DNA of 40,958 nucleotides, taken from assembly GCA_029858305.1 (NCBI GenBank), contig JAOUFI010000014.1, positions 1-40,958 on the forward strand. Direction: 5' to 3'. Position 1 is the first letter of the stretch; every line of letters starts with the position of its first letter. Below the pieces are notes generated by a model that saw only the letters and a program-made list of their open reading frames with translations, was not told where the DNA came from and ran no database searches. The position numbers and the translations under genes were made by a program. Shown piece by piece: positions 1 to 25,528 of the stretch. The stretch is from Candidatus Thorarchaeota archaeon (lineage in GTDB: Archaea > Asgardarchaeota > Thorarchaeia > Thorarchaeales > Thorarchaeaceae).

Positions 1-347
1 GAGAGGCCTACGAAGCAGAGAAACGTCAAATTGCAGAGATGTTGATTCGACAACTTGAGATTCTATATCCTGGCATCACGTCTGAGATTGAGATGGTAGA
101 TGTAGCAACTCCGTACACAACATGGCGCTATACTCTGAATGATATGGGTTCACCTATGGGCTGGTTGATGACCAAGGATACGCTCATGACTCAACTTCCA
201 CGAACATTGCCTAATCTTGATAATTTCTATATGGCTGGACAGTGGGTTTTGCCTGGAGGCGGTGTCCCTGGTTGCATCTATAGTGGGAGAAATGTTATCC
301 AGATTCTCTGTAAAAGAGACAGGAAACAGTTCCGAACGGAGAATTGA
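1..347 (+). CDS. CrtI-like FAD-dependent oxidoreductase, C-terminal end (5' truncated by window)
   Basis: An open reading frame already in progress at the left edge (codons from base 3) ends at TGA 345-347, so about 114 C-terminal residues are visible. The tail has the GQWVLPGGGVPGCIYSGR block (about residues 79-96 of the visible part). This resembles the last FAD-contacting segment of phytoene desaturase/carotenoid isomerase-type (CrtI/CrtH) flavoproteins, where a late Gly-rich stretch precedes the C-terminal helix. The Rossmann motif that would prove FAD binding lies outside the window. Members of the family oxidise or isomerise isoprenoid chains or related lipids using FAD; the substrate here is unknown. 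It lies about 2.8 kb upstream of a redox operon that also contains GGR- and CrtC-like proteins, which could indicate a shared isoprenoid theme, but genes on the other strand separate them. Confidence 0.62.
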   Translation, partial: EAYEAEKRQIAEMLIRQLEILYPGITSEIEMVDVATPYTTWRYTLNDMGSPMGWLMTKDTLMTQLPRTLPNLDNFYMAGQWVLPGGGVPGCIYSGRNVIQILCKRDRKQFRTEN

Positions 348-2994: not shown

Positions 2995-3161
2995 TCAATT
3001 CTTCCTATTGTGACTCGAACATAGTTGAAGATTAGAACCACCGAATCTGTGTATTGTTTAAGGATTGCTATAGAACGACTTCTTGAACACGTCAAATGAG
3101 TCTAGAATTTTTATTCAGTACTTCGTATTTTGTCGATGTTATCCTTCATCAAGGCATCTGA

Positions 3162-3168
3162 TATATAA
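3162..3168 (+). promoter_or_regulatory. TATA box of the PadR-led operon
   Basis: The sequence TATATAA in the context GATATATAAG is a good archaeal TATA element. About 26 bases downstream is the expected transcription start (near 3190), which leaves a leader of about 20 bases before the PadR ATG at 3209. The box is inferred from sequence only. Confidence 0.55.
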
Positions 3169-3183
3169 GTAGGAAGAAAGCAA

Positions 3184-3203
3184 CTGAGTAGAAATCTACT
3201 TAG
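3184..3203 (+). promoter_or_regulatory. Palindromic operator candidate at the PadR operon start site
   Basis: CTGAGTAGA-AA-TCTACTTAG is a 20-base palindrome with nine-base arms and one mismatch; the inner AGTAGA/TCTACT arms are perfect. It covers the transcription start predicted from the TATA box and ends 5 bases before the padR-like gene. PadR proteins are dimeric winged-helix repressors that usually bind inverted repeats in their own promoters, so autoregulation through this site is a reasonable inference. Confidence 0.5.
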
Positions 3204-3208
3204 TTGGA

Positions 3209-3757
3209 ATGATGATGAGTAAGAAGATCAAATTGTTCCTTCCTACACCAGCGAAGCTTACTCCCATCCAACTACTCATTATGATACAACTTCTTGAATC
3301 GCCAAAATATGGCTATGAAATCCTCAGTAGCCTCAGAAATGGATTCAAGGGGTCTTGGGAACCAAAAACTGGAACAATCTACCCCGCTTTACAATCTCTC
3401 GAGAAGAAAGCATTCATCACTTCAAATCTACAGGACAATAAAACTCACTATAGTCTCACGAAACAAGGAAAATCAATGATTGATGACATGAGCAATTATG
3501 TTGCAGAATATATCATGTTCAACACGAAGTTCATTGAGTCAACTGTTGCAAGTTTACCAGCTGACTTCACACAAGAGGTGTTCAGTAAGATTCACAATTC
3601 CGGTATTGATGAAATCATTCCTGAAGGAACAATCCTTGATGCAATAAGCAGATTGTCAAATACGATGCTAAAGCAGGCGTTTCTTCAGCAACGTCAAAGA
3701 ATTCTCAAGAGAAAGATGAAACTTGTGGAACATCATCTGAAGGCACTTGAAACATGA
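3209..3757 (+). CDS. PadR-family winged-helix transcriptional regulator
   Basis: A 182-aa protein. Residues about 17-90 form the PadR winged helix: LTPIQLLIMIQLLESPKYGY, then GSWEPKTGTIYPALQSLEKK with the TIYPAL recognition-helix signature, then a wing ending in HYSLTKQG. The remaining C-terminal half is helical, ends in a basic segment (QQRQRILKRKMK) and fits the PadR dimerisation region. PadR proteins usually repress neighbouring genes until an aromatic, lipophilic or redox-active ligand is bound. The next gene starts 9 bases after the stop, so this regulator is the first cistron of the redox operon and probably controls it. Three consecutive near-start ATGs (3209, 3212, 3215) make the exact start uncertain by two residues. 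A palindrome lies directly upstream. Confidence 0.9.
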   Translation: MMMSKKIKLFLPTPAKLTPIQLLIMIQLLESPKYGYEILSSLRNGFKGSWEPKTGTIYPALQSLEKKAFITSNLQDNKTHYSLTKQGKSMIDDMSNYVAEYIMFNTKFIESTVASLPADFTQEVFSKIHNSGIDEIIPEGTILDAISRLSNTMLKQAFLQQRQRILKRKMKLVEHHLKALET

Positions 3758-3766
3758 GGTGATATA

Positions 3767-5173
3767 ATGGAGAACTATGATGTGATAGTTGTTGGTGCTG
3801 GTCCTGGTGGATCCATTGCCGCTCGAGAGTCGGCAAAGAAAGGTTTGAAAACTATATTTTTCGAGCGTGGTCGAAAGCCTGGAGAAAAAAATTCCTCTGG
3901 ATGCGGTCTCGGACCAAGAATGTGGCGCGATTTCGATTTTATGACCGAATTGACACCTGAAGATTGCCCCTCACTGCGACCTGGTGCTGCAGCAAGGAAT
4001 TACTTGGTGAATAATGATGGGGAAGTATCAGGCTATCTAATGACAAAGCCAACTGACTCAGTGACATATGAACCAGCTAGAAGTTGGATTACTATGAATT
4101 GTTACAGGAGTGAATTTGATCCTTGGTTGGCTAAATATGCCACAGATGCTGGGGCGGTTTTGAAGACATCGACACTTGTCACTGGTCTCTTAAAAGAGAA
4201 TGGCAAGGTCTCCGGCGTTATTGATGAGAAGGGGAACAAATACAGCGGTTTGGTCATTGGGGCTGATGGCGCAATTTCTATGGTTGCTAGAGAAAGTGGT
4301 TTGCGACAAAGATGGGAGCAGGAACAGGTCACAATAGTTCCACAATATGACTTTGAATGTCCACCTTCAAAAATAGATGATGTCATGGGGGATGAGGCTC
4401 TTGCTGTCTGGTGGTCTGCAACATTTCCAGCAGCATATCAAGTATTCTTCAACGATGGTTTCCACATTGGTCTAGGTAACTGGATGACTTGGTGGGAGAA
4501 GAATCCCATGCACTATCTCAATCAAGTTGTCGCCTTGAAATATTTCCAGCGACAAATCCGAATACTTGAGGCGAAACCACGAGAATTCCAGGTTCATCTC
4601 CTACCATGGCAAGGTCAACCACATGACACACATGCCGATAATGTGATTCTCATTGGCGATGCTGGAGGATTTCCATGTCCACTCGAAGCCGAGGGAATCT
4701 ACCCTGCAATGGTTACCGCTAGAGCCGCAATTGAAACTGCTGTTGAGGCAATATCTGCTGCTGATGTTTCAAAGGAGTTCCTTAATCTTTATGACGCGAA
4801 ATGGAGGGCAACATCCGTCGGTGAGGAGTTCAAGACAGGTCCTGAATTAGCAAGCATCTGGAAAGCGCTTCCATTCAGTCCATTAAAGACGATGTCATGG
4901 TTTGTTCCAATGCTGATGGAAATAATTGGTGGTATCTTTGACTGGTCGGAGCCCCATGCTGTACGAGTCCGACAGATTGCACGCAGAGTCAAGCAGTATC
5001 TTCCTAATGCAATTCCTTTCATTATGAGAGAAGTCATACCATTGTTGACTGCAATTCTCGGAGAAGAGAATATGAATTTACTCACTGATCCTGAGAAACT
5101 CATCGCAGCAATGCCTGAACTCGAAGAAGCTATTGCCCGTTCATTTGTGGAGAATGATATGGAGGAGAAATGA
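3767..5173 (+). CDS. FixC/geranylgeranyl-reductase-like flavoprotein
   Basis: A 468-aa FAD-dependent oxidoreductase. The N-terminus has the Rossmann motif VVGAGPGG (GxGxxG at residues 10-15), an FERGRKPGEK segment that would contact FAD, then SSGCGLGP. A VIGADGA motif sits mid-protein, and NVILIGDAGGF followed by EAEGIYPAM forms the second FAD motif. This order is typical of the family that includes FixC, ETF-quinone oxidoreductase and archaeal geranylgeranyl reductases. The following gene encodes a FixX-like ferredoxin overlapping by 4 bases, so the two almost certainly work as an electron-transfer pair. No fixA/fixB (ETF) gene is in the window, which makes classic FixABCX bifurcation unlikely here. 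Alternatives are reduction of isoprenoid double bonds, or passing electrons from the downstream oxidases to a quinone or ferredoxin pool. The last 100 residues are amphipathic and may touch the membrane. Confidence 0.85.
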   Translation: MENYDVIVVGAGPGGSIAARESAKKGLKTIFFERGRKPGEKNSSGCGLGPRMWRDFDFMTELTPEDCPSLRPGAAARNYLVNNDGEVSGYLMTKPTDSVTYEPARSWITMNCYRSEFDPWLAKYATDAGAVLKTSTLVTGLLKENGKVSGVIDEKGNKYSGLVIGADGAISMVARESGLRQRWEQEQVTIVPQYDFECPPSKIDDVMGDEALAVWWSATFPAAYQVFFNDGFHIGLGNWMTWWEKNPMHYLNQVVALKYFQRQIRILEAKPREFQVHLLPWQGQPHDTHADNVILIGDAGGFPCPLEAEGIYPAMVTARAAIETAVEAISAADVSKEFLNLYDAKWRATSVGEEFKTGPELASIWKALPFSPLKTMSWFVPMLMEIIGGIFDWSEPHAVRVRQIARRVKQYLPNAIPFIMREVIPLLTAILGEENMNLLTDPEKLIAAMPELEEAIARSFVENDMEEK

Positions 5174-5445
5174 GTTTGAAGATAGACCATAAGAAACTGA
5201 TAATGCGAATTCCAGGAACAGGGAATTTTATCACGCTTGATAATGAGAAATGTACTCTGTGTGGTCGTTGCTTGATTATTTGTGTGATGAATCTTTGGAA
5301 AAAGAGTGATGACAGAGTGCATCTAGTCGATGACTATGCTTCTCATTGTCTTGAGTGCGGAGCATGTTATCAAGTGTGTGAATCTGGTGCAATTGATTTT
5401 AGATACCCCGCGGGCGGTACAGGAATCGTTTACGCAAAAGGCTAA
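5170..5445 (+). CDS. FixX-like 2[4Fe-4S] ferredoxin
   Basis: A 91-aa protein with two complete cluster motifs: Cys28-x2-Cys31-x2-Cys34-x3-Cys38 and Cys60-x2-Cys63-x2-Cys66-x3-Cys70. The C-terminus YPAGGTGIVYAKG matches the closing segment of FixX ferredoxin-like proteins. The ATG overlaps the stop of the FixC-like gene (ATGA), which indicates translational coupling. FixX-type proteins carry electrons to or from the FixC/ETF-QO flavoprotein, in which the ferredoxin module is sometimes fused. Here the split arrangement is kept. Its electron partner is very probably the 3767-5173 protein; the ultimate donor or acceptor is unknown. The second cluster motif lacks the Pro that usually follows the last Cys (Cys70-Glu). 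Confidence 0.88.
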   Translation: MSLKIDHKKLIMRIPGTGNFITLDNEKCTLCGRCLIICVMNLWKKSDDRVHLVDDYASHCLECGACYQVCESGAIDFRYPAGGTGIVYAKG

Positions 5446-5467
5446 CAAAATGGGTGAATAATTCAAT

Positions 5468-6913
5468 TTGACAGAAGACATGGTATCTATTATGACCGGT
5501 ATTGTTGGAAGGGACGATGTTTCTGATAACGATGACGTGTTGTCAAAATACTCAGGAAAAACTATACCTTCTCTTGTTGTTTGGCCAAAGACAACTGACG
5601 AAATTGCCCGGATTGTAAGATGGGCGAATTTGAAAAAGATTTCTCTTCTTGTTCGGAGTTCATCAGGACCGAGGCTGCGTGGAGACTGGTTTCCTAAGGT
5701 CGAGAATACTATTATTCTGGATCTAAGTAAGATGGACAGAATTCTACGCATCGACCCACTGAATAAAGTAGTGATGATTGAACCTGGTGTAACATACGGG
5801 AAGCTCTTGAAAGAATTGACAAGAAAGGGACTTCGACCTGCAATACCATTTATTCCTGAGGCTTCAAAGTCTGTTCTATCTGCATGTCTTGATAGAGAGC
5901 CTACGATCATGCCACGATTCCATTGGGATTCCTCAGATCCACTGCTCTGTACAGAAACAGTATTTGGTACCGGAGATGTTTTGCGGACTGGTGCAGCTGC
6001 AGGTCCAGGATCCCTCGAAGAACAATGGGCATCCGGTCAAGCGCAAAAAAATCCTCAAGGCCCATCACAATTTGATCCATTTAGATTGGTCCAAGGGGCT
6101 CAGGGTACTATTGGAATTGTCACATGGATCTCAATGAAATGCGAACAGCTGCCTGAGCACCATAAATTGTACCTTGCAGGTTCCGATAATTTGAACGATT
6201 TCATGGATTTCAACTATGCAGTCCTGCGGAGACGCCTCGCAGATGAACATTTCATGTTAAACAAAGTGAATTTTGAAGCGGCGATAGCAAGCGCTAATGA
6301 TATACCTGAATGGGTACTTGTTATCGGAGTATCTGGTCATGGTATGATAGCAGAAGAGGAGCTTGAATATCGAACTGGCGACATTATGGATATTGCTCGT
6401 GAAACTAATATTATCCTACATGATAGTCTTGGTAAGATTAAGGGAACAGATATCCTAACCCTCCTAAACAAACCTAGTGATGTCGCCTACTGGAAGCTTC
6501 AAGTATACGGTGAGTGTCATGAGATATTTTTCTTAACCACGCTGGATAGAGCGAAAGAATTCTATGAGGTATTTCAAAATACAGCTAACACTGTAGGATT
6601 TCCAATAGATCAGATAGGTGCATATATCCAACCCCTGGCTCAAGGTACGAATACTCATGTCGGATTAGACTTGTTCTATTCACCTGAAGATAAAGAACTA
6701 GTTGAAAAGATGATATCATTATCATCTATGGGTCAAGCTCAATTACTTAACAGAGGCGCATATTTCAGTAGACCTTATGGTTTCATTGTTGATGCAGTGT
6801 TCAAACATGCCTCATCATCCACATTGAGTGCAATGCGTCGTGTGAAGCAAATTTTTGATCCGAGCAACATTCTCAATCCCGGCGCTCTCTGCTTTAAGGA
6901 GGTGCTACAATGA
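5468..6913 (+). CDS. FAD-linked oxidase (VAO/PCMH type), GlcD/GlcE-like subunit
   Basis: A 481-aa protein of the vanillyl-alcohol-oxidase/PCMH flavoprotein fold. Seen in order: VVWPKTTDEIARIVRWAN (FAD-domain entry, about 37-54), IILDLSKMDRILRID, VMIEPGVTYGKLLKEL, VQGAQGTIGIVTW (about 209-221), a cap domain, and the C-terminal IFDPSNILNPGAL signature. The family oxidises 2-hydroxyacids, phenols or other alcohols, usually with an iron-sulfur or flavin electron acceptor. The usual RGGGT pyrophosphate loop reads RSSSGPRLRG, and the GGN block between the two FAD segments is not evident, so the cofactor contact is atypical. The start is TTG at 5468, with GGTGA 11 bases upstream; ATG 5480 is an alternative only four residues later. 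Its stop overlaps the next gene by ATGA. Confidence 0.82.
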   Translation: MTEDMVSIMTGIVGRDDVSDNDDVLSKYSGKTIPSLVVWPKTTDEIARIVRWANLKKISLLVRSSSGPRLRGDWFPKVENTIILDLSKMDRILRIDPLNKVVMIEPGVTYGKLLKELTRKGLRPAIPFIPEASKSVLSACLDREPTIMPRFHWDSSDPLLCTETVFGTGDVLRTGAAAGPGSLEEQWASGQAQKNPQGPSQFDPFRLVQGAQGTIGIVTWISMKCEQLPEHHKLYLAGSDNLNDFMDFNYAVLRRRLADEHFMLNKVNFEAAIASANDIPEWVLVIGVSGHGMIAEEELEYRTGDIMDIARETNIILHDSLGKIKGTDILTLLNKPSDVAYWKLQVYGECHEIFFLTTLDRAKEFYEVFQNTANTVGFPIDQIGAYIQPLAQGTNTHVGLDLFYSPEDKELVEKMISLSSMGQAQLLNRGAYFSRPYGFIVDAVFKHASSSTLSAMRRVKQIFDPSNILNPGALCFKEVLQ

Positions 6914-8181
6914 CCCTCAGCGAATTCGAGGATATGATGGATAGTTGTGTTCGATGTTCAAAGTGTAAATTCATCCCACAACTTGTCATTCAGAGCAAAC
7001 GATTCTCGAGCGTTTGTCCTTCAGTCGATTTCTATAATTTTCATGCGTACTCTGGAGGGGGACGCATGATTATGGGAAATGCATACCAAAAGGGTCGCGT
7101 AGAATTCACACAAGAGATGCTAGATGTGCTTTATAGATGTACAAATTGTGGGGGCTGTGAGGTTTCATGCAAATGGGTCTACGACCTCGAACCTAATGAG
7201 GCAATTCATGCGCTCCGTGTTGCGGCTGTTGAAAATGGTGCAGGTCCTATGCCCAAGCACAGAAAGTACATTGAACTTGTTGAAAGAATGAAGAATCCGT
7301 ATGGCGAGAATCCTGCGCAACGAACCTCATGGTTGACTGATGATATTGAGATTGATGCATCTTCAGATACTCTCTATTTTGTTGGTTGCACTGCTGCTAG
7401 TAGACGAGAAGAGATAGCAATAGCTACGGCTAAAGTTCTGAATGCTGCGAAGGAAAAGTTTCGTATAATGGGTTCCGATGAACAATGTTGTGGCTCGCCT
7501 GTCTACAGAGTTGGAGATGAGAAACGTGCTATTCAGATCATGAAGGAAAATATTGCTAGCTTCGAGCAGGCTGGAATAAAGCGCATCATAACTAGCTGCT
7601 CAGGTTGTTATAACATGCTCAAAGTAGAGTATCCTCGATTTGTGGAACATGACATCGAAGTGGTTCATACTGCACAATTGATAGAATCCTTTCTCAAGGA
7701 AGGCAGACTCGAACTAGTAAAAGATGTACCATTGAAGGTAACATATCATGATCCATGTCATCTTGGAAGAATGGCTGAACCATATGAGAAGTGGGAAGGA
7801 GAAAAGATTGAGGTTCTCACTCTCGTGTATATCTATGATCCACCGAAACCTGAGCGTCGAGGCGCGAATGGCGTTTATGATGCTCCCAGAAATGTATTGA
7901 AACAAATTCCTGGTCTCGAGCTAGTGGAAATGGAGCGTATCCGAGAATACTCCTATTGTTGTGGAGCAGGCGGCGGGTGCAAATCTGCCTATCCGGATTT
8001 TGCTCTTACCACAGCAAATGAACGTTTAGAAGAAGCAGAAGCCACAGGAGCAAATACTCTCGTGTCAGCATGTCCCTTCTGTGGTACGAACTTTCTAGAT
8101 GGTATAGAAAACAGGAACTCATCTATGAAATACTATGACCTGATTCAGCTTGTACTACAAAGCATCGGAGGTGAAGAGTAG
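6910..8181 (+). CDS. CCG-domain iron-sulfur oxidoreductase (GlcF/HdrD/GlpC-like)
   Basis: A 423-aa soluble protein. The N-terminus has Cys13-x2-Cys16-x2-Cys19 with Cys36-Pro, and then Cys77-x2-Cys80-x2-Cys83-x3-Cys87, two [4Fe-4S] sites. Two cysteine-rich CCG domains follow: the first with QCCGSPVYRVGD and TSCSGCYNML, the second with YHDPCHLGR, YCCGAGGGCKSAYP and SACPFCGTN. This architecture is that of GlcF, GlpC, LldE and HdrD/HdrB proteins, which carry electrons from a flavoprotein dehydrogenase to a quinone, heterodisulfide or other acceptor. Here it sits between two VAO-type oxidases, overlapping the first by 4 bases and abutting the second with no gap. A GlcDEF-like flavin-iron-sulfur complex is therefore the natural reading. 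No membrane helix is seen. The first cluster has an extra-long spacing between Cys19 and Cys36. Confidence 0.88.
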   Translation: MTLSEFEDMMDSCVRCSKCKFIPQLVIQSKRFSSVCPSVDFYNFHAYSGGGRMIMGNAYQKGRVEFTQEMLDVLYRCTNCGGCEVSCKWVYDLEPNEAIHALRVAAVENGAGPMPKHRKYIELVERMKNPYGENPAQRTSWLTDDIEIDASSDTLYFVGCTAASRREEIAIATAKVLNAAKEKFRIMGSDEQCCGSPVYRVGDEKRAIQIMKENIASFEQAGIKRIITSCSGCYNMLKVEYPRFVEHDIEVVHTAQLIESFLKEGRLELVKDVPLKVTYHDPCHLGRMAEPYEKWEGEKIEVLTLVYIYDPPKPERRGANGVYDAPRNVLKQIPGLELVEMERIREYSYCCGAGGGCKSAYPDFALTTANERLEEAEATGANTLVSACPFCGTNFLDGIENRNSSMKYYDLIQLVLQSIGGEE

Positions 8182-9765
8182 ATGCTTGAGAAGAATGTCT
8201 ATGAGTCTTTCAAGAAAATCGTAGGTGATCAATTCATTTCACAAGATCCGGCAGTGATGGACACCTATGCTTTCCAGTGGTGTAATGAGATTGAGAGTGC
8301 ACAACGAGGAGAAGAGCCTCAGAGGTTCGGAGTTCGTCCTCTTGCTGTTCTTCTTCCTGCCTCGTTAGAGGAAGTCCAGGCCATCGTTAGGCTTTGTAAT
8401 GAACATGATGTCACATTCAAAGCTCACACAACAGGCATGGGTCCTTGGGCTGGTGTCAGTAATCTCCGATCTATCCAGATTGATCTTAGAAGGATGAATC
8501 GAATTCTTGAGATTGATGAGAAGAATATGTATGCAGTAATTGAACCATACGTCACGAATGCAGAACTCCAAAGTGAACTCTTCAGGTATGGACTCATGCA
8601 TCATGCACAGGGAGCAGGTCCTCAGACATCTCCGCTAGCTAGTCATACATCTTTTGTAGGACCTGGCTTTACTTCTCCATATACGGGCTTTAGCGGCAGG
8701 AACGTTCTTGGCGTTGAATGGGTTCTTCCCTCAGGTGACATCCTCCGACTTGGCTCCTATGATTATAATGGGAAATGGTTCTCGGGTGATGGTCCAGGCT
8801 TTAGTCTAAGGGGCATCATGAGAGGATGGCTTGGAGCCTATGGTGGTCTTGGCGTGTTCACAAAGGCTGCTATTCGACTCTTCTCTTGGCCAGCTCCGAA
8901 AGACTGGAAATGGAAGACTGGAGGTACAATTCCTAACTATGATTGGGAAGTTCCTCCATACTGGCAGCTATATGTTTTGAACTTTGAAGAATGGGAAGAG
9001 TACCAATCAGCAATGTATGAGTTGAATGATAGAGAGGTTTGTATGGTTGCCACAACATCTGCTCCTGAGGGTCTGGCAGCCTTGTTCACTAATACAAAGA
9101 CAGAGGCAATCGAGGCTATTTTTGCGGGTCTGCTTGCTAGGACAAGAAATTACATTGTCGTTCTAGTAGCAGCGCATACTAGGCGTGAATTCGAGTTTAG
9201 GGCAAAATTGGTGAAACTCATTCTGGAGAAATATGGCGGTAACGATCTCATTGAAGAAGGGGTGATAACTCCAAAACCAATGCATTATGGCGAAACCGTG
9301 CGCAACATGCTAGGTGCACATGCATTCCGCTTCTCCAATTGTTTCCAAAGCACTCACGGCGGAATGGATACTATTTCTATGGCAGTTAGACTTGCTCAAT
9401 TGAATCAGCCAGTGAAACAGAAGTATATCGAAAAAGGTGTAATTGGTGATGATAGAGGACTCGGTGTTTGGATAACGAGTTATGAATCCGGACACATGGC
9501 TCATATGGAGGTACCAACAGTCTACGATCCCACATCAGTGAAATCTTGCTTGGGCTATGCGGAATATCAAGATGAATGCAACAAAATGGACCTTGATCAA
9601 GCACTTGGCATGCCATTCTTCATAGTAGGTGATGAAGTTCACGAATTCTACGCAGAAAGAACTATGCATTATCCTGATTGGTTGAGAAAGATCAAAGCAT
9701 CTTTTGATCCAAAGGGTCTCTCTGATCCAAGTCACTATGTGAAAGGAGTGAAGAAAGATAAATGA
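8182..9765 (+). CDS. Second FAD-linked oxidase (VAO/PCMH type) of the complex
   Basis: A 527-aa protein with the VAO/PCMH fold: FGVRPLAVLLPASLEEVQAI (about 48-67) for FAD-domain entry, IDLRRMNRILEID, AVIEPYVTNAELQ, GFSGRNVLGVEWVLPSG, the GWLGAYGGLGVFTKAAIRL block (about 214-232), a large cap domain, and a C-terminal IKASFDPKGLSDPSHY. It is distinct from the 5468-6913 protein and about 45 residues longer. The classic RGGGT loop is replaced by HTTGMGPWAG, so FAD binding follows a variant pattern. Its ATG directly follows the stop of the CCG protein, and its stop overlaps the next gene by 4 bases. The pairing of two VAO proteins with one CCG protein is reminiscent of glycolate oxidase GlcD-GlcE-GlcF. 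The substrate is unknown; the many aromatic residues in the cap could suit a bulky or aromatic/isoprenoid substrate (inference). Confidence 0.82.
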   Translation: MLEKNVYESFKKIVGDQFISQDPAVMDTYAFQWCNEIESAQRGEEPQRFGVRPLAVLLPASLEEVQAIVRLCNEHDVTFKAHTTGMGPWAGVSNLRSIQIDLRRMNRILEIDEKNMYAVIEPYVTNAELQSELFRYGLMHHAQGAGPQTSPLASHTSFVGPGFTSPYTGFSGRNVLGVEWVLPSGDILRLGSYDYNGKWFSGDGPGFSLRGIMRGWLGAYGGLGVFTKAAIRLFSWPAPKDWKWKTGGTIPNYDWEVPPYWQLYVLNFEEWEEYQSAMYELNDREVCMVATTSAPEGLAALFTNTKTEAIEAIFAGLLARTRNYIVVLVAAHTRREFEFRAKLVKLILEKYGGNDLIEEGVITPKPMHYGETVRNMLGAHAFRFSNCFQSTHGGMDTISMAVRLAQLNQPVKQKYIEKGVIGDDRGLGVWITSYESGHMAHMEVPTVYDPTSVKSCLGYAEYQDECNKMDLDQALGMPFFIVGDEVHEFYAERTMHYPDWLRKIKASFDPKGLSDPSHYVKGVKKDK

Positions 9766-10847
9766 AAGACAATATCAATCCAAACGTAAAAGAAGGGTGG
9801 ACGGGTCCTGGAAGAAGGGATGGGGTGATTCATCCTCTTAGACCTGAAGATGATGCGTTGCACATCGATGTAGGCAAGAAAAACCAATTCGAATGGTGGT
9901 ATTTCGATGCTCATCTCGATGGTGGCTACACTCTTGTTGCATTCTTCTACGCTGCAAATCCTAATCCCGGTTTGAACTCAGGCAAGACTGGCGTTGAGCT
10001 TGTTCTTCTACGTCCGGATGGTCGGAAGACACAGAGGTTCATCAAGTACAAAAAATCAGAATTCTCTGCATCACGTGAAAAAGCTGACGTGAAGATAGGC
10101 AAGAACTATCTCGAGGTTGATTACTCTCAAGGAGACCTTCCTATCTATCGAATTCATCTCGATGAGGAGGAACTTGCTTTTGATTTGACATACAAATCCC
10201 TAGTTGTTGGATGGAAACCTGGAACAGGCTTCTCACACTTTGCAGATCTTGGTTATTTCGCGTGGGTCGTTCCGTTTGCTAAAGCTGATGTGAGCGGTAT
10301 AGTTCGTGATGGCAATAAGACAATAAATGTCACGGGTGTTGGGTATCATGATCATAATTGGCTTAATTTCGCCTTCGCTACAATAATCGAGTACTGGATG
10401 TGGGGCAGGGTATACTCCGAGAATTTCACTCTCTCCTATGCATTCATACAGTGCAATCAGAAAGTTGACCGTCATGTAGTGAAGGTACTAATGCTAGCGA
10501 AAGGAAAAGATGTCATCCTGAGTTCTGGTGAGTTTGATTTCAGACAGGAGAATTTCGAATACAGCAAGGCGGCTGGTCATAGTTTTCCAAGAACAATTAT
10601 CATTACCAATCCAGAAAAAGGTGAAATCAAACTAGATGTTGCTAGAATCCTTGAGGCTGAGAGCATGCTTGCCAACTTCAATATAGCATTAAGATTCATA
10701 GCTAAAAACATACTTAGGATGAAACCCGGTTACTTTAGACTGAATTCAGATTTTGCACTAAGGATAACACATGATGGAAACACCTACACGGAGGTTGGTA
10801 ACACACTTCACGAGATTGTGACATTCAAGCAGTTAGGTCCAAGTTAG
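9762..10847 (+). CDS. CrtC/AttH-type lipocalin-like protein
   Basis: A 361-aa protein without signal peptide or membrane helix. Its landmarks are FEWWYFDAHLDGGYTLVA (residues 43-60), GFSHFADLGYFAWVVPFAKA in the middle, and GYHDHNW (194-200), followed by a segment rich in Trp, Tyr and Phe. These are the marks of the CrtC (hydroxyneurosporene synthase/carotenoid 1,2-hydratase) and AttH two-lipocalin fold. CrtC adds water to a terminal isoprenoid double bond; other members have unknown lipid-related roles. It is the last gene of the PadR operon and is translationally coupled to the second VAO oxidase (ATGA). A hydratase step acting with flavin redox enzymes on an isoprenoid or another hydrophobic alkene fits the context but is inferred. 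The stop lies 9 bases from the convergent longin-like gene. Confidence 0.75.
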   Translation: MKDNINPNVKEGWTGPGRRDGVIHPLRPEDDALHIDVGKKNQFEWWYFDAHLDGGYTLVAFFYAANPNPGLNSGKTGVELVLLRPDGRKTQRFIKYKKSEFSASREKADVKIGKNYLEVDYSQGDLPIYRIHLDEEELAFDLTYKSLVVGWKPGTGFSHFADLGYFAWVVPFAKADVSGIVRDGNKTINVTGVGYHDHNWLNFAFATIIEYWMWGRVYSENFTLSYAFIQCNQKVDRHVVKVLMLAKGKDVILSSGEFDFRQENFEYSKAAGHSFPRTIIITNPEKGEIKLDVARILEAESMLANFNIALRFIAKNILRMKPGYFRLNSDFALRITHDGNTYTEVGNTLHEIVTFKQLGPS

Positions 10848-22109: not shown

Positions 22110-24551
22110 ATGCTCATGCCAAGGGTACTTCTCCATGGTGGTGTCTACACCTTGACCCTTGATGAGAACAGTATCCCCTTCATAAAAATCTGGGCACCTT
22201 CTGACAATCTATCTGAACGTGTTCAAAAGCTTAGGACGCACTTCTATTCATTTGCTAGTCGAAAAGAAACCAATGAACCATACTCATTTACAACTGGAGT
22301 CGACTGGGATGAAGTCTACTCCGTCCATGATTGGGCGAATGAACCAGCAATCTATCCTTTCTTTCCCTCAATTAATCAGACCTTGAAATCCATGGTAGTA
22401 AATGTAGATTTACCCGAAGATTATTGGAATCATACTCTGGCAAAAAGGAAAGCCATATTCTTTCATGAAGTCATGACCAAGTATATGCCAGTTATCATAA
22501 TTGATGGAGAGCTGATAGTTGGTTTCAATTTTAATACAGCCCTTTCCAGATCTTTGAACAAATCAGAGACCTCAGCACGGAATAAAGCGATGAAAAAGTA
22601 CTTCAAAGAAGCAACTCGTCTAAACGAAGTTGGCGTGGGTACTGCTTCTGCTGTACCCGGTCATCTTATCCCCAACTATGCAAAGGTCATGAGAATAGGG
22701 CTTCGAGGGATTGCTGAGGAATACGAGGCACTGCTGGAACGTGATTTATCAGCAGAACACCGTGAGTTTGTTGAAGCATTGATTTTGAGTTGTCTTACTG
22801 GAAGAGATGTTGGTCATCGCTATGCGAAGAAAGCGCGAGATCTAGCTTTGAGTGAAACGAATATTCAAAGAAAAGATGAGTTAATGAAGATCTCTGAAAT
22901 GTGCGAAAGAGTTCCTTGGGAGGCACCCACAACATTCTGGGAGGCTTTGCAGTCACTCTGGATAACTCATATGCTTGTGATGGCTGCCGAGTCGTACCCC
23001 GGAGCGGGTCTGTCTCACGGTCGTTGGGATCAATACATGTATCCCTTCTACAAGAAGGATCTTGAATCAGGCGAGATTACCCGTGAGCAAGCAAAAGAAA
23101 TCATGCAGTGTTATTGGATAAAGCACAACTACGTGTATGATTTCCAAGGACGCTTGGGTATTAATCAAGGGATAAATTCAAGCTTTGGTCAGTTGATGAC
23201 CTTAAGCGGTTGCGGACCGAATGGAGAAGACCTGACAAATGACCTAACCTGGTTGGCTCTTGAGGTGATTGATGAAATGAATCTCTTCGAACCAAAGCCA
23301 AATGTTAGACTGCATCGAAACACTCCACAAGATTTTCTTATGCGTGTTGCAGAGATGATATCGAAAGCACAAGGTTCCCCGTTCTTGATGAATTTTGATG
23401 AACACAGCATTGAGGGAATGGTCTGGCAAGGTGTTCCTCGTGAAGATGCGTGGGACTATGGTATTGTCGGATGTCTAGAAAACACGATGCAAGGTAACGA
23501 TCGATCTGATACTGTCGATGTCAACTTCAACCTGGCTAAAGCTGTTGAACTCGCACTAAACAACGGAAAAGACATGGCGACGGGAAAACAAATCGGCATC
23601 AAAACAGGAGACCCTCGTCGTTTTGAATCATATGACCAGTTTTTGGACGCAGTTAAGAAACAAATTGTTGAGCTAATCCGGTTGCTGACAGAATGTGGCA
23701 ACATGGCTGACACAGTGCGAGCGAAGTACCAGCCTACCCCATACCTCAGTGCTCTCATGGATGGATGTGCAGAACGAGGAAAGGATGTCAATGAAGGTGG
23801 TACTGATTGGAACTTTAATACACTTGAAGGCATGGGAATCGCTACTCTAACAGACTCTGTAGCTGCTGTCAAGAAAATGGTCTACGACGAGAAACGAGTA
23901 AGTATGTCAGAACTTCTAAAGGCAATTGAAGATAATTATGATGGGCATGAAGAGCTTCGACAACTTCTCCGTTCAAAGGCTCCTAAATTTGGCAACGATG
24001 ATGATGCTGTTGATAATATCGCCAAAGAACTTTCAATGTTCTGGGCGATGGAGGCTTTTAAACGCAATAATTCCTATACAGGTCGCAGATACCGAGCTGG
24101 GTACCTGTCATGGAACTATTTTATTCCCCTTGCACCACTCACCGCCGCTACACCTGATGGGAGAAGAAGAGGAGAGTTCTTGTCTGGTGGGGTTGGAGCT
24201 GTCCAGGGAATGGATGCAAAAGGTCCGACGGCTTCCATAAGGTCTGTTGGAAAACTTGGTCTTGAAACCGTTCCTAATGGGGCTAGTCACACTATCACTC
24301 TCAGTCCGTCAATGGTGAAGACTCCTGAACATGTCGAGAAGCTTGCTGCATTGCTAAGAGCATACAACGAAGTGGGAGGAACTGCCCTACAGATTAATAT
24401 CATTGACAGCCATACTCTACGCGACGCTCAAAAGAATCCTGATGCATACTCAAACCTAATGGTACGAGTGACTGGATATAATGCCTTTTTCACGCAGATA
24501 GGCAGAGAGTTACAGGAAGAAATCATAACACGTACGGAGCATATCCTCTGA
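22110..24551 (+). CDS. Glycyl radical enzyme (PFL-like family, dehydratase/lyase type)
   Basis: An 813-aa enzyme with both hallmarks of the family: the active-site loop YGIVGCLE, with Cys455 (thiyl radical) and Glu457 (general base), and the C-terminal RVTGYNAFF motif with Gly789, the residue converted to the glycyl radical. A GCxE pair separates dehydratases and C-N/C-O lyases (glycerol/diol dehydratase, choline lyase, hydroxyproline and hydroxyphenylacetate enzymes) from true pyruvate formate-lyase, which has two adjacent Cys. The usual GCVEP is GCLEN here, so the subclass is unclear. Acting anaerobically in the cytosol, it needs the activase encoded next, with a one-base TGATG overlap. About 30 N-terminal residues precede the recognisable family start (SERVQKL). 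Substrate unknown. A palindrome sits just upstream. Confidence 0.9.
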   Translation: MLMPRVLLHGGVYTLTLDENSIPFIKIWAPSDNLSERVQKLRTHFYSFASRKETNEPYSFTTGVDWDEVYSVHDWANEPAIYPFFPSINQTLKSMVVNVDLPEDYWNHTLAKRKAIFFHEVMTKYMPVIIIDGELIVGFNFNTALSRSLNKSETSARNKAMKKYFKEATRLNEVGVGTASAVPGHLIPNYAKVMRIGLRGIAEEYEALLERDLSAEHREFVEALILSCLTGRDVGHRYAKKARDLALSETNIQRKDELMKISEMCERVPWEAPTTFWEALQSLWITHMLVMAAESYPGAGLSHGRWDQYMYPFYKKDLESGEITREQAKEIMQCYWIKHNYVYDFQGRLGINQGINSSFGQLMTLSGCGPNGEDLTNDLTWLALEVIDEMNLFEPKPNVRLHRNTPQDFLMRVAEMISKAQGSPFLMNFDEHSIEGMVWQGVPREDAWDYGIVGCLENTMQGNDRSDTVDVNFNLAKAVELALNNGKDMATGKQIGIKTGDPRRFESYDQFLDAVKKQIVELIRLLTECGNMADTVRAKYQPTPYLSALMDGCAERGKDVNEGGTDWNFNTLEGMGIATLTDSVAAVKKMVYDEKRVSMSELLKAIEDNYDGHEELRQLLRSKAPKFGNDDDAVDNIAKELSMFWAMEAFKRNNSYTGRRYRAGYLSWNYFIPLAPLTAATPDGRRRGEFLSGGVGAVQGMDAKGPTASIRSVGKLGLETVPNGASHTITLSPSMVKTPEHVEKLAALLRAYNEVGGTALQINIIDSHTLRDAQKNPDAYSNLMVRVTGYNAFFTQIGRELQEEIITRTEHIL

Positions 24552-25528
24552 TGAGTACAACTGGTATTGTAACCAATATTCAACGGTGTTCAACTGAGGA
24601 TGGTCCAGGTATAAGGACGACTGTCTTCTTCAAAGGATGTCCAATGAAATGTCTCTGGTGTCACAATATTGAAACCATTGATCCAGATCCGACACTTGTT
24701 TGGTATGCAGTGAAGTGCATTGGTGATCAAGCCTGCGTTCGAGCATGTCCAGAGTCTGCTCTCGAATTAACTGCTGATGGCATGAGAATTGATAGAACCC
24801 TCTGCAAAGTATGTGGTTCTTGCGAAGATGCTTGCCCTACCGGAGCAATGAAAGTTATGGGAAAACTCTGGAGTGCAGAAGATCTTGTGGAAGAATTACT
24901 TCGAGACAAGGTGTTCTTCACAACATCAAATGGTGGGGTGACCCTCTCTGGAGGAGAGGCAACTTTCCAAGTTGAGTTTGCTATTCAAGTAGCATCTGGT
25001 CTGCAAAAGAATGGAGTGCATATTGCTTTGGACACTTGTGGTTATTGCAGTGAGGAGAGCTTCCAGAGAATTCTCTCACACGTCGATTTGGTACTATACG
25101 ACCTCAAAGTAATGGACTCTCAGCAGCATAAAGAATACACGGGAGTTCCAATTGAACGAGTATTATCGAATGCAAGGATTCTTGCACAGAGTGGAAAACC
25201 CGTTTGGATAAGAACCCCTGTGATTCCTGGGCATACTGATAGCGAGGAAAATATTCGTGCTATTGCAAAATTCATTGTTGAGAATATGCCAAATGTTGAA
25301 CGATATGATCTTCTCGCCTTCAATAGGATGTGTACGGAAAAGTACACATTATTTGATCTGGAGTATCCCCTGAAAGATACAGAACTAATGACTGACGAAA
25401 CCATGGAGCATTTGGCCGAGATTGCTCGAAAAGAGGGTGTGCCCCTCGTAGCATGGTCTGGAATGACAAGGAATTCTGCTAAAGGTATTTCGACAAAGGA
25501 ACCGGAGGTAAGCTCCTGTGGAAACTAA
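24551..25528 (+). CDS. Glycyl radical enzyme activase (radical SAM)
   Basis: A 325-aa radical SAM enzyme that installs the glycyl radical on the partner encoded just upstream. The N-terminus has STEDGPGIRTTVFFKGC and the cluster motif Cys30-x3-Cys34-x2-Cys37 (the radical SAM signature). A ferredoxin-like insert follows with Cys85-x2-Cys88-x2-Cys91-x3-Cys95 and a first, incomplete motif Cys56-x5-Cys62-x3-Cys66-Pro. Then come TLSGGEATFQ and ALDTCGYC, typical of PflA-family proteins. Activases of non-PFL glycyl radical enzymes normally carry this insert, which agrees with the GCxE enzyme type. The first insert motif lacks one of the expected four cysteines (Asp/Gln at 59-60). It is coupled to both neighbours: one-base overlap upstream, 11-base overlap downstream. 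Confidence 0.92.
   Translation: MSTTGIVTNIQRCSTEDGPGIRTTVFFKGCPMKCLWCHNIETIDPDPTLVWYAVKCIGDQACVRACPESALELTADGMRIDRTLCKVCGSCEDACPTGAMKVMGKLWSAEDLVEELLRDKVFFTTSNGGVTLSGGEATFQVEFAIQVASGLQKNGVHIALDTCGYCSEESFQRILSHVDLVLYDLKVMDSQQHKEYTGVPIERVLSNARILAQSGKPVWIRTPVIPGHTDSEENIRAIAKFIVENMPNVERYDLLAFNRMCTEKYTLFDLEYPLKDTELMTDETMEHLAEIARKEGVPLVAWSGMTRNSAKGISTKEPEVSSCGN

Follow-up and report, generated by a model that had tools for sequence, protein, structure and literature searches.

We identified a seven-gene operon in a 40,958-nucleotide stretch of Candidatus Thorarchaeota DNA (the window) that probably contributes to an oxygen-independent attack on a compound that is insoluble in water and likely ring-shaped. 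The best explanation of its gene content, to which we give about an even chance, is an anaerobic oxidation module of flavin and iron–sulfur proteins, controlled by PadR, whose substrate is hydrophobic and probably aromatic or prenyl-aromatic. The unit itself is well supported, with seven conserved co-oriented genes, an operator-like palindrome and a VAO1–CCG–VAO2 core of a wide family all evident from sequence. We infer the substrate and the direction of catalysis, the latter, oxidation, from protein fold and from the company of electron-transfer flavoprotein (ETF) and CCG proteins.

All seven ORFs lie on the forward strand. A PadR-family regulator (positions 3209–3757; PF03551 59.1 bits, cut-off 27) precedes a GGR/FixC-superfamily flavoprotein (3767–5173; FAD_binding_3 43.4 bits), a 2×[4Fe-4S] ferredoxin with eight cysteines in two clusters (5170–5445; Fer4_9 38.3 bits), VAO1 with a TTG start (5468–6913; FAD_binding_4 58.9 bits, FAD-oxidase_C 28.6 bits), an HdrB/D- and GlcF-like CCG iron–sulfur protein (6910–8181; CCG 128.2 bits, Fer4_8 36.4 bits), the flavoprotein VAO2 (8182–9765; FAD_binding_4 77.1 bits) and a CrtC/AttH-like tandem-lipocalin protein (9762–10847; CrtC PF07143 23.3 bits, cut-off 22.5). 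Four-base ATGA overlaps at 5170, 6910 and 9762 and a zero-base junction at 8181/8182 couple most genes, with gaps of 9 bp between padR and the GGR-like gene and 22 bp between the ferredoxin gene and VAO1. These ORFs, strands and junctions, with Pfam backing each call, uphold the original prediction of one co-oriented seven-gene operon with correctly named parts. The gene-order search proposed with it recovers the full order in other Thorarchaeota at 44–89% protein identity, so the arrangement is not chance, and recovers the core in several bacterial phyla and other archaea. Upstream of padR, a TATA-box-like element (GATATATAAG, 3160–3169, forward strand) sits just 5′ of a 26-bp palindrome (CAACTGAGTAGAAATCTACTTAGTTG, 3181–3206, forward strand) that is the probable PadR operator. 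The palindrome occupies the same place in L032, L033, L036, L098 and L100 with 0 mismatches in fixed positions and in L102 and L104 with 2 mismatches, and is the sole copy in its own genome at ≤2 mismatches. A PadR domain thus accompanies a putative operator at its own promoter, and the conservation and essential uniqueness of the palindrome before padR suggest a dedicated local regulator.

The VAO1–CCG–VAO2 core belongs to a wide family. In phylogenetic trees VAO1 forms a separate clade (support 100), the VAO1 and VAO2 clades both lie apart from GlcD-like paralogues, and window VAO2 falls in an all-Asgard VAO2 clade. The CCG protein contains two ferredoxin-type and two CCG motifs with every cysteine present, and carries an EPYxxWEG insertion seen in L178 and L180 and absent from L183 and L184. 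An AlphaFold2 model of the 527-aa VAO2 (pLDDT 83.6) resembles D-lactate dehydrogenase and vanillyl-alcohol/4-ethylphenol oxidases in fold (Foldseek TM about 0.7), with D-lactate dehydrogenases as top matches and Ldh-EtfAB (LctD) also listed, and VAO2 is the probable catalytic subunit. The trimer, often followed by a GGR-like flavoprotein and ferredoxin, also occurs in Chloroflexi (with the pair in L040 and L095), Actinomycetota (with the pair in L055, L057, L064 and L069), Jordarchaeia and Desulfobacterota, where L191/L192 join part of the trimer to a GGR-like gene. Within Asgard archaea the family is patchy (24/99 genomes), and Actinomycetota show multi-copy expansion, with 15 copies in G157.

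The anaerobic attack on benzene and comparably inert molecules is a long-standing question, for which a VAO–CCG–VAO flavoprotein became the lead candidate only in 2026: BzS1_12970/80/90 is a candidate anaerobic benzene-activating protein in bacteria (PMC13416013, 2026), ‘Magic’ proteins 24–26 of Ca. Anaerobenzenivorax ORM2a are a candidate benzene-activating flavoprotein (PMC13101534, 2026), and both are very abundant in benzene-degrading cultures. The operon core matches both in gene order and domain make-up, with a VAO bearing FAD-oxidase_C, a CCG protein and a VAO lacking that domain in one operon of an anaerobe; ETF is implicated there and in the window family, and the VAO1 and CCG subunits are similar in size. 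This likeness is one of layout; membership of the benzene-activating group would also call for at least 63% identity to the benzene-degrader subunits. Because the core layout is the same as that of a protein proposed to attack benzene, the operon probably serves oxygen-free attack on a water-insoluble compound. The original prediction that no described pathway combines these parts stands for the exact set, but the core has a very close layout counterpart in the candidate benzene-activating flavoprotein. The link extends the benzene-candidate layout to a wide family in Asgard archaea, Chloroflexi and Actinomycetota (none of which is named as a member in the available parts of PMC13416013 and PMC13101534), gives that family recurrent partners (ETF, GGR–ferredoxin, lipocalin, SCP2, AOR and amidohydrolase), and provides an archaeal version with a testable putative operator. 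It thereby opens the general chemistry of the family to easier testing and points to a possible catabolic trait in the archaea that are the nearest relatives of eukaryotes.

We compared the flavoprotein–ferredoxin pair with known systems. A GGR paralogue with an adjoining ferredoxin is common in archaea (PMC10821996), and the window pair resembles the Methanosarcina acetivorans-type geranylgeranyl reductase in joining a GGR flavoprotein to a 2×[4Fe-4S] ferredoxin and in its FAD motifs RxxxD and LxGD (34/34 relatives) and Cys46 (20/34 relatives; the catalytic cysteine is absent from many bacterial members). It differs in scoring 131.6 bits against the TIGR02032 cut-off of 158.8, in co-inheritance with the VAO/CCG trimer and in its substrate motif: PxxYxWxFP is not conserved, reading PAAYQVFFN in the window with valine for tryptophan and no second proline, and 25/34 GGR-like proteins have valine at that position. 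PDB matches include FixC 7koe (5e-20) and the DGGGPL reductase 3oz2 (2e-17). The pair had been predicted to be FixCX-like and does combine a FixC-superfamily flavoprotein with a small ferredoxin, but it falls far short of the curated cut-offs (FixC 71.4 against 610, FixX 22.2 against 166), and fixAB is absent from the operon in the Asgard loci mapped. The same prediction held that, with no ETF gene present, electrons come from elsewhere, and that adjoining fixAB would count against this. EtfAB is encoded on another contig of this genome, unlinked to the operon, and in bacterial relatives ETF genes lie within or next to the trimer operon (about 19 loci in all, such as L192 with the order VAO1–EtfB–EtfA–CCG–VAO2–GGR), so the inference does not hold in general and, by its own criterion, the electron-supply claim fails in those relatives. 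Across 99 genomes of the Asgard phylum, VAO2 is found together with the GGR orthologue in 20 against 4+1 exceptions (Fisher p = 5e-16; G014 is counted, with GGR on another contig) and VAO2 and the CrtC-like protein in 15 against 9+3 (p = 4e-9), values that overstate significance because the genomes are related. Two Thorarchaeota genomes of 98–99% estimated completeness (G013 and G024) keep the trimer and lack the GGR orthologue, and the GGR–ferredoxin pair is therefore not essential to the trimer.

The last protein of the operon scores marginally for CrtC in the window and 31.4 bits in an orthologue. Sequence and profile searches of the PDB found no convincing relative, and its fold was therefore taken from an AlphaFold2 model (pLDDT 86) and Foldseek, which reveal a tandem lipocalin matching AttH 2ich (E 3e-13), CghA, Fsa2, kievitone hydratase and 25-phosphosteroid lyase. 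It shares this fold with the CrtC, AttH, kievitone hydratase, Diels-Alderase and 25-phosphosteroid lyase group while differing at 10–16% sequence identity, and its EWWYFD and GYHDHNW motifs are invariant across 15 Asgard copies. SCP2-like proteins adjoin VAO2 in L102, L104 and L105 (assigned with Pfam for the L102 copy), and such carriers together with the tandem-lipocalin fold suggest a hydrophobic substrate. Clues to an aromatic substrate come from an SCP2-arylsulfotransferase that, in one genome only (L101), is added ahead of the other genes after the padR palindrome, from aldehyde:ferredoxin oxidoreductase (AOR) beside bacterial copies, from PF04909 amidohydrolase beside bacterial and Asgard copies, and from BadFG/HGD-D genes adjoining a trimer in sulfate reducers. 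In GC-rich loci, neighbours were assigned by homology-supported ORF choice, as the automatic tally often picked antisense ORFs. The predicted isoprenoid or hydrophobic substrate survives as a likely hydrophobic one. The isoprenoid clue has to be set against the aromatic clues, given the lack of conservation in the substrate motif of GGR and the use of the CrtC fold by enzymes outside carotenoid metabolism as well.

In the proposed mechanism, VAO1, CCG and VAO2 would form a heterotrimeric dehydrogenase in which VAO2, which is the more conserved of the two flavoproteins and resembles 4-alkylphenol and D-lactate dehydrogenases in structure, would take hydride from the substrate. Electrons would exit through the four iron–sulfur motifs of CCG to ferredoxin or to ETF, encoded elsewhere in this genome and inside the operon in some bacteria. 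With these electrons the ferredoxin/GGR-like pair could saturate an isolated double bond in an intermediate of the pathway, or it could instead act as an ETF/ferredoxin-linked oxidoreductase, and the tandem lipocalin may hydrate, dehydrate or otherwise rearrange a hydrophobic intermediate.

We considered three other explanations. Isoprenoid or lipid biosynthesis or remodelling, in which prenyl chains would be saturated by GGR–ferredoxin and hydrated by the CrtC-like protein, with the trimer as electron source, would account for the archaeal GGR–ferredoxin pairing, the CrtC/Svf1/Diels-Alderase-type fold and a CrtI-family gene upstream of the operon in the window (truncated) and in L032. We regard it as unlikely, as the eroded GGR motif and missing catalytic cysteines, the patchy Asgard distribution and Actinomycetota expansion, unlike core lipid synthesis, and catabolic neighbours in other loci (acyl-CoA ligase, ACAD, AOR and ETF) argue against it. 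The CrtI-family protein was rejected as an operon part: it is not orthologous to those beside bacterial trimers (22–25% identity). A GlcDEF-like 2-hydroxy-acid dehydrogenase (for glycolate, D-lactate or D-2-hydroxyglutarate) with accidental neighbours is quite improbable. Like GlcDEF, the operon pairs two flavoproteins of VAO fold with a single CCG protein, all from the same domain families, and the Foldseek ranking also speaks for this reading. The GlcDEF likeness named in the original prediction is nevertheless a distant one: NCBIfam glcD scores of 75 and 66.6 bits against a cut-off of 567.9 and the separate clades place the window proteins elsewhere, and the conserved GGR–ferredoxin, lipocalin and SCP2 company would go unexplained.

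That the operon is a true counterpart of the benzene-activating protein, with the archaeon attacking an unactivated aromatic hydrocarbon, is very improbable despite the shared layout and similar VAO1 and CCG sizes. The operon is archaeal, its VAO2 has 527 aa compared with 65.8 kDa in BzS1 and sits in an all-Asgard clade, and the BzS1 paper (PMC13416013) notes that NaphS2 and Ds. variabilis have relatives of low identity that are not used for benzene. The window has PadR, GGR–ferredoxin and the tandem lipocalin where ‘Magic’ has CoA ligase, MaoC and CoA transferases; no acyl-CoA ligase, MaoC, type III CoA transferase or beta-oxidation gene occurs among window ORFs around the operon, and a search of 395 Desulfobacterota-phylum genomes, 63 of one class and 390 of another, gave many relatives but did not identify the benzene-degrader sequences; the ‘Magic’ gene set, sought also as tandem CoA-transferase pairs, was not seen in the neighbourhoods mapped. 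With an oxidation module for a hydrophobic compound as the preferred reading, a bolder form, to which we give little credence, is that Asgard archaea hold their own branch of the flavin and iron–sulfur family responsible for oxygen-free activation of inert aromatic hydrocarbons. In that branch an ene-reductase driven by ferredoxin and an enzyme of lipocalin fold would adapt the system to the breakdown of prenylated or polycyclic aromatics.

Several further genes were inspected. A membrane protein upstream of the operon (1808–2230) had no match in the family search. An HGD-D pair of the same genome was rejected as benzoyl-CoA reductase; it falls below every equivalog cut-off and looks like 2-hydroxyacyl-CoA dehydratase. 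An adjacent ORF pair in L160, considered as a CoA-transferase pair, proved to be DctP.

The seven genes, encoding PadR (3209-3757), a GGR/FixC-like protein (3767-5173), a ferredoxin (5170-5445), VAO1 (5468-6913), the iron-sulfur protein CCG (6910-8181), VAO2 (8182-9765) and a CrtC-like protein (9762-10847), lie on the forward strand of the window, the 40,958 bases with which contig C98 begins, in a genome of 3.04 Mb and 205 contigs. Checking coordinates on the window confirmed all seven reading frames and every junction of the original prediction, and searches against Pfam and NCBIfam backed a family assignment for each protein. Mapping by tblastn across loci drawn from a species-wide collection and from Asgard relatives shows a conserved unit: several Thorarchaeota have the complete gene order, with protein identities of 44-89%. 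In a second Asgard arrangement (family f2; L112, L113, L115, L116), GGR-Fd lies divergently next to VAO1-CCG-VAO2, and genes for a small protein and a CrtC-like protein come after the trimer. The VAO1-CCG-VAO2 trimer has a wider range, with copies in a Jordarchaeon, Chloroflexi/Dehalococcoidia, Actinomycetota and Desulfobacterota; in Chloroflexi, Actinomycetota and Desulfobacterota, GGR-Fd is often 3′ of it (L040, L095, L055, L057, L064, L069, L191/L192). VAO2 and the GGR orthologue occur together in 20 of 99 Asgard-phylum genomes, with exceptions numbering 4 and 1 (Fisher p 5e-16, overstating independence as the genomes are related). This association is more than linkage, since in genome G014, where padR directly precedes VAO1, GGR lies on a separate contig; in two genomes estimated to be 98-99% complete (G013, G024) the trimer is present but GGR is missing. 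Of the 99 genomes, 18 encode the CrtC-like protein, and VAO2 accompanies it in 15 (Fisher p 4e-9, again overstating independence through kinship).

A FastTree phylogeny of 152 rows, with support values that are only local and uncertainty over several long branches, recovers a VAO1 clade (support 100) and a VAO2 clade (support 99), with GlcD-like paralogues outside both. The window VAO2 falls inside an all-Asgard clade of 22 rows (support 100), whose sister comprises Chloroflexi, Jordarchaeia and Actinomycetota copies and some from Desulfobacterota. Fifteen VAO2 profile matches in the 3.9 Mb actinomycetotal genome carrying L064 (G157) suggest large substrate diversification.

Regulation of the unit appears to be dedicated. 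The padR start (3209) is preceded by a 26-bp palindrome, CAACTGAGTAGAAATCTACTTAGTTG (3181-3206), with a TATA-like element (3160-3169) upstream of it. The palindrome recurs at the equivalent place with no mismatches over 18 fixed positions in L032, L033, L036, L098 and L100; the copies in L102 and L104 each differ at two positions. Allowing up to three mismatches, the window contains no second copy (0.02 expected), and the whole genome holds one further palindrome-like site, with three mismatches. These data are good circumstantial evidence for a putative dedicated PadR operator. In L101 (genome G006) the palindrome lies 5′ of an extra first gene that lies 7 bp before padR and encodes SCP2 (PF02036, 31.4 bits) and arylsulfotransferase (PF05935, 104.6 bits) domains; N- and C-terminal hydrophobic stretches, read from its sequence, suggest that the product is membrane-anchored. 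This single genome offers a clue that the substrate may be aromatic and hydrophobic.

The CCG protein has complete cysteines in two ferredoxin-type motifs (13/16/19/36 and 77/80/83/87) and two CCG motifs (160/193/194/230/233 and 283/350/351/388/391). About 19 loci have ETF genes inside or adjoining the trimer operon, including L192 (VAO1-EtfB-EtfA-CCG-VAO2-GGR) and L040 and L095, where EtfB sits between VAO1 and CCG. In the window's own genome, the EtfB gene is followed by one for an EtfA that carries a 2x[4Fe-4S] ferredoxin domain at its N-terminus (G000:C88:5609-7602, L198), with no dehydrogenase or FixCX gene alongside. The idea that the FixC-like protein has to work without ETF accordingly lacks support. 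Bacterial trimer neighbours include an acyl-CoA ligase and an acyl-CoA dehydrogenase (both named from sequence reading), aldehyde:ferredoxin oxidoreductase (AFOR) and a PF04909 amidohydrolase, the last also adjoining the operon in Asgard loci L112 and L116. Three sulfate reducers share the order trimer-methylmalonyl-CoA-mutase-like-B12-GGR-like-BadFG-HGD-D (L249, L250, L251), with EtfAB seen upstream in L249 and L251. The bacterial and Asgard neighbours point to a role in degrading recalcitrant, in many cases cyclic, molecules anaerobically. The gene unit, its conservation and the operator-like palindrome are established by these comparisons. We infer a complex of the operon products, its electron path, an oxidative direction and a substrate, and give about an even chance that the operon is a module for anaerobically oxidising a hydrophobic compound, probably an aromatic or prenyl-aromatic one.

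Separately, the full content of the L249-L251 cluster is the trimer, a methylmalonyl-CoA-mutase-like protein, a B12-binding subunit, GTPase-like and U32 peptidase-like proteins, a GGR-superfamily flavoprotein, two BadFG activases and HGD-D; we know of no description of this anaerobic pathway so far. In deltaproteobacterial L079, L082, L083, L085 and L089, VAO2 is followed by an Fe-S protein and a protein with the AFOR N-terminal domain but no C domains, an unusual form, and a second CCG protein completes the cluster in all of these loci except L082.

The GGR-like protein scores 131.6 bits against a GGR-superfamily cut-off of 158.8 and, far lower, 71.4 bits against a FixC cut-off of 610. Among 34 relatives RxxxD and LxGD are invariant and Cys46 is kept in 20; PxxYxWxFP, the motif for the substrate of GGR, is not conserved. 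We place the protein in the GGR superfamily as a distinct kind of member. A ferredoxin gene adjoining a GGR paralogue is a common arrangement in archaea (PMC10821996). The window protein barely clears the CrtC Pfam cut-off (23.3 bits against 22.5), and an orthologue does so more firmly (CrtC 31.4 bits, also matching Svf1_C at 26.3 and the Diels-Alderase N-domain at 25.8). The confident AlphaFold2 model of the CrtC-like protein (mean pLDDT 86, pTM 0.86) is almost all-beta and matches AttH, the Diels-Alderases CghA/Fsa2/Phm7, kievitone hydratase and 25-phosphosteroid lyase in Foldseek; because TM-scores are ~0.55-0.64, the modelled protein shares fold rather than function with them. Kievitone hydratase acts on prenylated phenols and PDB entries of the lyase name sterol side chains as its target, so this fold acts on both. 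The lyase reaction is a step in anaerobic cholesterol degradation (PMC11061730). The nearest solved folds to the AlphaFold2 model of VAO2 (pLDDT 83.6), at TM ~0.7, are the D-lactate dehydrogenase mLDHD, vanillyl-alcohol, 4-ethylphenol and eugenol oxidases and p-cresol methylhydroxylase, a set that does not separate hydroxy-acid from phenol-type substrates.

The trimer also resembles a candidate benzene-activating flavoprotein. According to two 2026 papers, VAO-CCG-VAO heterotrimer proteins are the most abundant in anaerobic benzene degraders and are proposed as the likely benzene-activating enzyme (PMC13416013, PMC13101534). As described there for BzS1, both VAOs carry the FAD-binding domain, the FAD-linked oxidase domain is confined to the first, and a cysteine-rich protein lies between them (PMC13416013); the window trimer has the same domain make-up in both VAOs and a cysteine-rich protein in the middle. 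This likeness is one of order, domains and partners. The BzS1 paper considers ETF involvement and reports syntenic relatives with 23-42% identity in non-benzene degraders (PMC13416013). Term searches found no Thorarchaeota in the main texts of either paper, and no Chloroflexi or Actinobacteria in that of PMC13416013. Among the alternatives, we regard lipid biosynthesis as unlikely, hydroxy-acid oxidation as quite improbable and true benzene-type activation by the window operon as very improbable; we favour oxidation of a hydrophobic compound, probably an aromatic or prenyl-aromatic one.

Other genes flank the operon. The contig start cuts a CrtI/carotenoid-isomerase-family flavoprotein gene, leaving a C-terminal piece (39-347, forward strand); in L032 a full-length CrtI-family gene (1292-2839) sits after a putative regulator gene, with the transporter gene and the PadR operon downstream. 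CrtI-family genes recurring near bacterial trimers are non-orthologous to it. Divergent from the operon on the reverse strand are genes for a CitMHS/ArsB-type anion transporter (393-1787), kept at the equivalent place in L032, and a TauE/SafE exporter (2239-2994), which is not. Downstream, 22110-25528 (forward strand) encodes a predicted glycyl-radical enzyme (813 aa) and its activating enzyme, which could be linked to anaerobic catabolism.
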